Positions 5,783-46,128 of a stretch of 46,128 nucleotides of DNA are shown piece after piece. The position numbers and the translations under genes are program-made. Position 1 is the stretch's first letter; each line of letters begins with the position of its first letter. Source of the DNA: a virus; IMG/VR virus record IMGVR_UViG_3300008450_000068, positions 1 through 46,128 of that record; one strand, 5' to 3'. The notes below the pieces were generated by a model. That model was not told the origin of the DNA. It did not search any database and was given only the letters and a program-made list of their open reading frames with translations.

Positions 5783-6310
5783 AATGGGTAACCCCGCTAT
5801 CTATCTTCGTTATCCATCCGTCTTTTATAACTCATTGATTACATTAAGTAAAAAATGGATGGATACGATGGATAAGATGGATACGGGGGTCTTATAAGGG
5901 GGTATATAAAAAGGATATATAGTTTCAGTCTTCCTTAAATATAGTCTATATCTTCTCTTATAATATCTATCCTATCTATCTATCTATCTATATTATATTA
6001 AATCTTTAAAATCAATAGGTTAGAATCAAAACAAGATGGATAGAGTAATAGATAACAAGATAGATATAGGTACAAATTGAAACTAAGTGATTGAATAGGG
6101 GTAGTGTAGTGGGCAGTATATTAAAACACTATGTTTAAGAACACAGGGTAGTTTTCGATATATGCACCAAGCTGGTCGATGTATCGAATTGAGGTTAAGA
6201 TAATGGAAAACAAAGAGTGAGTGAAAAAATGGAATAAGGGCGAAAAGGCCGCGCCCGCAGAGTATTTTTATCAACAAAAACTTTTAAAAATCAACTAGGA
6301 ACAGACTTTT
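5783..6310. other. Repeat-rich AT-rich non-coding region, origin candidate
   Basis: These 528 bases hold no convincing gene. They contain repeated GGATGGATA/GATAAGATGGATAC units (5856-5886), their complements (TATCCATCC at 5811-5819), a run of CTAT tetranucleotides (about 5969-5992), a later group AAGATGGATAGAG/ACAAGATAGATATAG (6033-6069), and a GGGGGTCTTATAAGGGGG element (5885-5902) before a TATATAAAAAGGATATATAG stretch. Iteron-like repeats plus an AT-rich tract directly after the primase-helicase gene fit a replication origin. Function is inferred. Confidence 0.5.
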
Positions 6311-8389: not shown

Positions 8390-8785
8390 TTCATTCCCCC
8401 TTAAATTCGATTAATCCCTTTGACCAATCTATGAATCTATTATATAGAATAACTTCAGATCACAAGTTGATAATAACTATCATAAACAGGTACTTTCGAT
8501 AGATTTAGACTAAATCGATTTAGACGCGATTTAAGGGGGTTTTTAGACGAGTTAGCTCGATCTGACAGAATCCTATGCGGACGAAATTTAAATTGAATGT
8601 CACAAATCAGTCCAGTTTAAGTCTTATATAAGAGTTGAGTCTAGTCTTATATAAGAGTGAACAAAGACTAAATCTGATCATTTTTATGAATATATTCAAA
8701 AAAGAGTTCCCTTTATTTTGAAAGTCTGACATAATCTTAATTATGGAATCGCAGATTGGTTCCCAATATTTATAAGGGGTTAGAA
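8390..8785. promoter_or_regulatory. Divergent intergenic region with palindromic repeats
   Basis: No gene is visible in these 396 bases. AGTCTTATATAAGAGT occurs twice (8620-8635 and 8643-8658), its core TCTTATATAAGA being a perfect palindrome and the copies 23 bp apart. CTAAATCGATTTAG (8510-8523) is another perfect palindrome, flanked by two GATTTAGAC copies (8502-8510 and 8517-8525). A plus-strand promoter-like TTGAAAGTCTGACATAAT lies at about 8719-8736. The 23-bp spacing of the twin palindromes, close to two helical turns, suggests cooperative repressor or initiator binding. Function is inferred. Confidence 0.6.
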
Positions 8786-35770: not shown

Positions 35771-35799
35771 ATTATATCGGGTTTTACAATTAATTTCAA
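35771..35799 (-). promoter_or_regulatory. Near-consensus sigma-70 promoter for the DpdA/replisome unit
   Basis: On the minus strand TTGAAA (35794-35799) and TATAAT (35771-35776) are exactly 17 bp apart. The leader TAAACATCA follows, as at the 1750 and 41065 promoters. It sits just after a terminator, so transcription of DpdA, clamp and polymerase appears to be independent of the preQ0 genes. Confidence 0.85.
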
Positions 35800-35817
35800 T
35801 AAATTAATTGTCGACAT

Positions 35818-35848
35818 AAAAATAGCCACATGGTTAGTGGCTATTTTT
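35818..35848 (-). terminator. Terminator after PRTase-FolE
   Basis: AAAAATAGCCAC (35818-35829) and GTGGCTATTTTT (35837-35848) pair perfectly around a 7-base loop, with the T-run on both strands. It separates the preQ0 gene set (upstream) from the DpdA/replisome unit. Confidence 0.85.
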
Positions 35849-35866
35849 ATTATATCAGGAACTTAT

Positions 35867-41064: not shown

Positions 41065-41093
41065 ATTATAGCTGACTTTGTTTTAAAAATAAA
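41065..41093 (-). promoter_or_regulatory. Minus-strand promoter ahead of the preQ0 operon
   Basis: TATAAT (41065-41070) lies 28 bases before the ATG at 41037 and is followed by TCAAACATCA, the recurring leader. The -35 is weak (TTTATT at 41088-41093, 17-bp spacing), but the segment AAAGTCAGCTATAAT matches AAAGTCTGATATAAT at the 45574 promoter. Confidence 0.6.
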
Positions 41094-44684: not shown

Positions 44685-45410
44685 TTACTTTCCTTTAATT
44701 TTGTTGAATAAATACGTCAGGTTGGGTGCTTCTAGTGGCGCTAAATTTCCTGACCGATCCTTAGCGACATACTGTGTATCCGGTTGCGTCTGTAAAAAAC
44801 GATGTTCTTTGCCCTGCGGGTCTTTCATTACCCCCATGCGAAAAACTTCGTCAAATAAATACGGTAGTTGAGGTCCGACTTGTTTACCTGGCATCATAGG
44901 TTGCCACATGATAGCGCCGGTTATTTCGTCTTTGTCTTTTTCCATCTTCGCGGAAATATAAACATTTTTGCCATTTATATCGCGATAGGCTTTGATTAGT
45001 TGAATCAACTTTTCGGCCATGTCACCATAAGCTTGGCGCGGGTCTTTGGCGATCAATTTAGAATTGGTTAAAACCTTTTCGCCAATTTCGCTCAATGAAT
45101 CCATGCAGATTGTTTCAAATTGCTTTGCTTCGTGAGCTTCAGTCACCCAGCGATAAATGTCACCTAAGTCAGCCATTGAGCTAACTAAGATCACCGGAAT
45201 GTCGTAGGTTATCCCCTGAGTATTAACCCCGAACATTCGTTCAAGGTTGGATTTTTTCAACGATAGCAACCCCGATTCGGCAGAAATGATAATAGGTGTT
45301 GGAGCTGTAGCACAAAGAACCGTTTTACCTGAACCTGAGCCGGCATAAGTCAAGACTTTTATACCAGCGTCTTGAACCGATTGCTCAGTGGTTGTGAAAT
45401 TAAGAGCCAT
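44685..45410 (-). CDS. Sak4-like RecA-fold ATPase (AAA_24), 241 aa
   Basis: Walker A is GSGSGKT (24-30). ICMDSLSEIGEKVL (about 101-114) is the Walker B region. MAEKLIQLIKAYRDINGKNV and VYISAKMEKDKDE follow, and the end has GPQLPYLFDEVFRM. These match the AAA_24/Sak4 proteins that act as RecA-core single-strand annealing proteins in phages. It pairs with the DUF669 protein and the nuclease to form a recombination module. Its mRNA begins with a structured leader (45421-45567). Confidence 0.8.
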   Translation of the reverse strand: MALNFTTTEQSVQDAGIKVLTYAGSGSGKTVLCATAPTPIIISAESGLLSLKKSNLERMFGVNTQGITYDIPVILVSSMADLGDIYRWVTEAHEAKQFETICMDSLSEIGEKVLTNSKLIAKDPRQAYGDMAEKLIQLIKAYRDINGKNVYISAKMEKDKDEITGAIMWQPMMPGKQVGPQLPYLFDEVFRMGVMKDPQGKEHRFLQTQPDTQYVAKDRSGNLAPLEAPNLTYLFNKIKGK

Positions 45411-45437
45411 GTTTAATACCTCGTTGTTGGTAATTGT

Positions 45438-45552
45438 ATTAGATCGAAACTATCTGATTGTGGATACCACTAATCAGTAATGGTTATTAATGGAAAAGCC
45501 CATTAATTTTTTGCCTGCAGTGCTCAACCTTACCCGATAGTTTCGATCTAAT
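45438..45552 (-). ncRNA. Structured 5' leader with 17-bp closing stem
   Basis: ATTAGATCGAAACTATC and GATAGTTTCGATCTAAT (45438-45454 and 45536-45552) form a perfect 17-bp stem. Inside it on the minus strand are ATTAATGG-GCTTTT-CCATTAAT (a perfect 8-bp hairpin) and CTGATT-A-GTGG-TAT-CCAC-AATCAG (a 10-bp hairpin with one bulge). The promoter at 45574 would transcribe it as the leader of the Sak4-like gene, whose ATG is 28 bases beyond. A multi-branch junction closed by a long P1 is typical of riboswitches or protein-binding leaders. Function unknown. Confidence 0.72.
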
Positions 45553-45564
45553 AGAATTTGTTAA

Positions 45565-45603
45565 GTGAGTCTTATTATATCAGACTTTAAAAATAAGACT
45601 CAC
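45565..45603 (-). promoter_or_regulatory. Promoter bracketed by a 12-bp inverted repeat
   Basis: TATAAT is at 45574-45579 on the minus strand, with a weak GTGAGT at 45598-45603. The arms GTGAGTCTTATT (45565-45576) and AATAAGACTCAC (45592-45603) are perfect inverted repeats 15 bp apart, so they cover the -10 and -35 regions. This is operator-like. AGTCTTAT also forms the half-site of the palindromes at 8620-8658. Confidence 0.7.
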
Positions 45604-45621
45604 CTATTTTGTGGTTAATCG

Positions 45622-46128
45622 TTAGTCTTTCTGTGCTGATAAAACTATGTTTATTTCACTCATACTACTTGCCTCTTTAACTGGTGGAAGTGGTAGAGGC
45701 GCAGGCTTTCCGCAATGAGGGCAACGATCAATCCACAATTCGACACCATCTGTCATTAATGTCACGCAAGAGTGCTTCCAGCCGTTTACATATTTGCTTT
45801 CTGGCTCTTGCTCACGAACTAATCCAGTAGTTATATTGTCTATCTGCGATAGGACACCAGCTAAATCACCAAGAACTTCAAATACTGGCGATTCTGTCTT
45901 GTAATGCTTTTGCCATAAGTGCGTGGCTAGCTCTTGAGTGCTTTTGAGCAACCAGGCTGGCTGTTGATCAAACTTTGTGACATATTCCCCGTCAAGAATT
46001 TTTAACGCCTCTTCAATAGGGCAATTCATGTTCGAATGTTCGCCTACTGGAACGTCAAAATACTCACCAACTCTTTGGGCTAAGTTGGTTGCCTGTTCCT
46101 CCCAATAATCACGTTGTTCAATAGTCTG
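45622..46128 (-). CDS. Hypothetical protein, C-terminal part (same gene as 1-435)
   Basis: This frame is open to the window end. Joined to 1-435 through the 114-base repeat it makes a 275-residue protein. The C-terminal portion includes KTESPVFEVLGDLAGVLSQI, SCVTLMTDGVELWIDRCPHC with GKP following, and an end EASSMSEINIVLSAQKD. The two-cysteine CPHCG may bind metal with another site. It is the last gene before the convergent-spaced promoter region of the Sak4 unit (18 bases away). Function unknown. Confidence 0.8.
   Translation of the reverse strand, partial: QTIEQRDYWEEQATNLAQRVGEYFDVPVGEHSNMNCPIEEALKILDGEYVTKFDQQPAWLLKSTQELATHLWQKHYKTESPVFEVLGDLAGVLSQIDNITTGLVREQEPESKYVNGWKHSCVTLMTDGVELWIDRCPHCGKPAPLPLPPVKEASSMSEINIVLSAQKD
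46015..46128. repeat. Terminal direct repeat, right copy (circular join)
   Basis: Identical to bases 1-114. See the left copy. Its presence supports a closed or permuted molecule of about 46,014 bp. Confidence 0.95.

Follow-up and report, generated by a model that had tools for sequence, protein, structure and literature searches.

What the long hairpin located just ahead of a Sak4-like gene does in the genome of an uncultured phage, and whether it is a riboswitch, is the question raised by this locus. The window, i.e. the whole stretch of DNA analysed (46,128 nucleotides), is a virus record in which positions 1-114 recur as an exact direct terminal repeat at 46015-46128. Given this 114-bp repeat at the record ends, the genome is read as complete and circularly assembled, and probably measures 46,014 bp. 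Its replication genes are like those of Queuovirinae and allied siphophages. The hairpin site is found in the minus-strand interval between an upstream gene of about 275 codons, which is also on the minus strand and spans the record-end junction, and the Sak4-like gene (45410-44685), behind which genes for SSB, a Cas4-type exonuclease and a helicase are found. Genes of 7-deazaguanine metabolism (queE, queC, queD, folE and a queuine tRNA-ribosyltransferase-like gene) are located downstream in the same orientation. The preliminary description had called the gene downstream of the leader Sak4-like, and the match to PHROG phrog_124 (E = 5.6e-55) agrees. The features of the region, listed in the direction of transcription, are as follows.

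45562..45606, no strand assigned: operator-like inverted repeat flanking the -10, 12 perfect bp, 14/15 over 15
45574..45582, minus strand: predicted extended -10 promoter TGA-TATAAT, within the 15-mer AAAGTCTGATATAAT (45588-45574)
45437..45553, minus strand: hairpin element of 117 bases, with P1 closing a three-way junction
45536..45553, minus strand: P1 5' arm, reaching 45558 with one mismatch
45477..45533, minus strand: P2, a helix of 8 bp (45533-45526/45485-45477) with a bulged A; it encloses P3 and the unpaired GAGCACTGCAGGCAAAAA
45486..45507, minus strand: P3 hairpin, 8 bp, loop GCTTTT (45507-45500/45493-45486)
about 45455..45476, minus strand: P4 hairpin, 8-9 bp, one bulged A, loop UAU
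45437..45454, minus strand: P1 3' arm, reaching 45432 with one mismatch
45419..45422, minus strand: Shine-Dalgarno (SD) sequence GAGG, 8 nt from the ATG at 45410
44685..45410, minus strand: Sak4-like ssDNA annealing protein gene, the first gene after the leader

Folding of the minus-strand RNA from 45552 to 45438 returned the shape described earlier, plus an extra helix; the overall arrangement is a three-way junction formed by P1, P2 and P4. The closing stem, reported as perfect over 17 bp, is in fact made of 18 perfect Watson-Crick pairs (45437-45454/45536-45553), and 22/23 positions are paired out to 45432/45558. G-U pairs are absent from P1. Both internal hairpins of the preliminary description are present, the 8-bp one with the GCTTTT loop corresponding to P3; the second has the single bulge, but spans 8-9 bp and not 10 (P4), and the third inner helix, P2, had been overlooked. 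The unpaired GC-rich segment with the CTGCAG core is likewise found inside the hairpin, as GAGCACTGCAGGCAAAAA.

The hairpin is real, and P1 is far beyond chance. The minus-strand fold has a minimum free energy of -40.5 kcal/mol (z = -7.06), a stability reached by none of 200 shuffles, and in a set of 30 shuffled genomes perfect inverted repeats within 150 nt did not exceed 13 bp. A survey of about 564 kb from related loci and of 605 kb from related phage genomes found few perfect inverted repeats that reach 16 bp within 150 nt, and none of them ahead of Sak4. The fold signal is almost wholly in the closing stem, and the interior is barely above chance: folded alone, its 81 nt gave z = -1.5, and 18 of 200 shuffles did as well. 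The opposite strand folds equally well (z = -7.5), as a near-perfect palindrome must. Since both strands fold alike and P1 is devoid of G-U pairs, the sequence cannot tell an RNA function from a DNA function.

The promoter that the preliminary description placed at 45574 was recognised in the sequence as described, the -10 TATAAT being located at 45579-45574. It is part of an extended -10 (45582-45574) lacking a good -35, which is missed by a simple consensus scan, and transcription is predicted to start at about 45566. The operator-like inverted repeat belongs to a cluster of four AGTCT half-sites. The 15-mer AAAGTCTGATATAAT recurs on the plus strand, where a copy with one base changed (AAAGTCTGACATAAT) is located at 8721, and the densest AGTCT/AGACT clusters of the genome, counted per 120 bp, are found at 8620 (five copies) and 45568 (four copies); 100 shuffles yielded at most three. 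The recurring 15-mer and the two clusters make it likely that the promoter upstream of the Sak4 leader is a real one and that it shares a regulator; a single regulator probably acts on the rightward (8618-8735) and the leftward (45565-45630) promoter. Both promoter-like sites contain AAAGTCTGAYATAAT, and two copies of AGTCTTATATAAGAGT are found at 8620 and 8643. The leaders following the sibling promoter-like sites at 41065 and 35771 are short and unstructured, and as two other genes of the cluster have leaders of this kind, the long structure appears to be specific to Sak4. The 35771-35850 interval holds in tandem a first promoter-like site, a strong terminator-like hairpin of 14 bp (ATAAAAATAGCCAC) and another promoter-like site.

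The SD-like GAGG reported ahead of the Sak4 ATG was found at 45422-45419, and fold and positions together corroborate the notion of a strongly structured leader between the promoter and the Sak4 SD. P1 begins about 13 nt past the predicted start and ends 14 nt before the SD. No terminator-like site was found after the stem. In the predicted 5' untranslated region the pairing probabilities of the SD region are nearly the same when P1 is allowed and when it is forbidden, and a weak 4-bp hairpin touches the GG of the SD in either case. With no terminator, and an SD unaffected by P1, neither of the classical riboswitch outputs is present, and mRNA stability, processing or protein binding remain as roles for the stem. 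A short putative uORF (MGFSINNHY) is located within the leader.

Homologues of the element were found neither by blastn against phages and plasmids nor by pattern scans of viral contigs with the stem arms. A stem-arm pattern applied to genome contigs (one genome each of about 85,000 species) gave five matches, which is about the chance expectation, and these look unrelated. A single-sequence covariance model recovered only the element itself and one other locus (L031), which had previously been selected by the stem arms. Inverted repeats in the 350 nt upstream of the gene do not exceed 11 bp in about 100 Sak4 relatives (41-61% identical), and in many of these relatives Sak4 sits directly after another gene. 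The element thus appears to be absent from distant relatives, i.e. from those whose Sak4 is 41-61% identical. A perfect 22-bp stem at L115:4943-5056 lies beside a gene related to the upstream gene of the window (71% identity over the first 75 residues). The outer ends of this stem resemble integron attC core sites, and no Sak4 was found in the record; being without Sak4 and looking like an integron attC, the stem was rejected as an orthologue of the hairpin. In Pantoea phage Vid5 (L022:3243-3514) three copies of 72-bp perfect inverted repeats are found near an SSB-like gene next to Sak4.

A lineage-specific hairpin of the 5' leader, with the role of an RNase III-type processing site or of an mRNA-stability stem on the Sak4 mRNA, is the explanation tentatively favoured from the sequence, at somewhat less than an even chance. 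The mRNA would start at the regulated promoter, open with Sak4 and carry the hairpin in its 5' untranslated leader; the hairpin would be transcribed and would fold in the ~130 nt at the start of the RNA. The long double-stranded stem would act at the RNA level, either cut by the host RNase III or shielding the 5' end, and would determine how stable the Sak4 mRNA is and how well it is translated, either constitutively or in concert with a phage protein. The position between promoter and SD fits a leader role, and the stem is long and uninterrupted (18 perfect bp, 22/23), as expected of an RNase III processing site. Against this reading stand the length of the stem, which at 18 bp plus a few pairs past a mismatch is close to the lower limit for RNase III substrates, the equal folding of both strands, a P1 without G-U pairs, and the lack of homologues and hence of covariation. 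Among known systems, the lambda leader from nutL to N is similarly highly structured and spans the interval from an early promoter to its first gene (PMC5725501); work cited in this source ties RNase III to the repression of N translation (Wilson et al. 2002, via PMC5725501). The Sak4 leader differs in that no nut-like box was recognised, no phage antiterminator was identified and no sequence relation was shown. The R1.1 RNA of phage T7, an RNase III substrate, likewise offers a stem in a phage mRNA to the enzyme (PMC4858673), but is 60 nt long, whereas the element described here is longer, branched and placed in a 5' leader. In leader mRNAs bearing Correia elements RNase III cleaves at the terminal repeats (PMC10969869).

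The main rival is the insertion of a MITE-like palindrome of about 120 bp into the leader, with terminal inverted repeats of 18-23 bp and an 81-nt core, its effect on the mRNA being secondary; it could act on the mRNA in the same way as a leader stem, and is a serious though doubtful possibility. Prokaryotic MITEs have terminal inverted repeats of about 4-30 bp, measure less than 500 bp in total, and are AT-rich and intergenic (PMC10969869), and size, repeat length, base composition (35% GC) and intergenic location of the element all fit. Correia/NEMIS and other prokaryotic MITEs resemble it in being about 120 bp long, AT-rich, intergenic and promoter-proximal, with terminal inverted repeats of ~20 bp; like them, the hairpin would be a substrate of RNase III (PMC10969869). 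The perfect 18-bp repeat has TA at both ends, and the element is missing at the same place in the ~100 relatives. When the flanks are joined, a short unstructured leader of the type of the sibling promoters results, a resemblance that fits an acquired element. However, the element is single copy in this genome; copies with the same arms were not above chance in the survey of ~85,000 species, one genome each, and none was found in viral contigs or plasmids. Unlike MITEs, it could be assigned to no family, is not known to have a related transposase and shows no clear target-site duplication, the flanking direct repeats being only TA, which the palindrome itself implies. A function at the DNA level, as a cruciform, an operator or part of a replication origin, is quite unlikely. 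It would agree with a perfect, strand-symmetric palindrome, and in Me-ZS1, another phage with Sak4, a long non-coding stretch contains a 16-bp inverted repeat with an apparent DnaA box; yet no consensus DnaA box was found at the hairpin, where one 8/9 match is present, and neither iterons nor a GC-skew switch are located there. The skew switches near 4-6 kb, away from the hairpin, and a non-coding, AT-rich stretch with iteron-like GATGGATAC repeats follows the primase gene at 5.8-6.1 kb; this stretch is more plausibly a candidate origin than the hairpin.

The remaining alternatives assign to the leader RNA a partner to be recognised. A protein-binding RNA, either an autoregulatory operator (for Sak4 or SSB) or a put/nut-like antitermination element acting on RNA polymerase, is unlikely: the location right behind a promoter heading a long run of co-directional genes, the branched structure and the unpaired CTGCAG-centred segment would suit it, but the interior fold is not significant and the element is not conserved with Sak4. 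The put RNA of phage HK022 is also a structured RNA just behind a phage promoter, but consists of two adjacent stem-loops of about 70 nt in all, with no enclosing stem, whereas here a long stem encloses everything (PMC9378689). A metabolite riboswitch, e.g. for 7-deazaguanines, is highly improbable. A structured leader and 7-deazaguanine genes downstream speak for it, but the que genes are several genes off and have promoter-like sites of their own in between. The remark of the preliminary description that no known riboswitch is matched is confirmed, as no Rfam 15 family matches the element, but the term riboswitch-like is not supported: no expression platform and no homologues with a conserved aptamer were found, the interior is not significantly structured, and the hairpin bears little resemblance to a switch that senses metabolites. 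Very unlikely, too, is that the hairpin represents a new class of regulatory RNA in phages with 7-deazaguanine genes, which would sense a phage protein or a metabolite and time the recombination/replication operon by means other than terminator or SD switching.

Some sequences found elsewhere are also of relevance to replication origins. A candidate origin is the 5783-6310 interval of the window, located behind the primase gene and close to the GC-skew minimum; it is AT-rich and non-coding and contains iteron-like GATGGATAC and TATC repeats. The window (1-46128) has a single match to the DnaA-box consensus TTWTNCACA, about 6.7 occurrences being expected. In Microcystis phage Me-ZS1 (L134:9166-9275, 48865-48974 of the record) the 16-bp inverted repeat encloses DnaA-box-like repeats (CTGTGGATAA), and this stretch is a possible origin.

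The element is most likely, to judge from its sequence and location, a leader stem peculiar to this lineage, or a palindrome that was inserted there and has the same effect. A processing or stability stem would be a phage-specific and testable way of setting the expression of the recombinase; an inserted palindrome would be an example of a small mobile element rewiring a phage leader. In addition, the AGTCT operator cluster found at two promoters hints at a shared regulator that may be identifiable.
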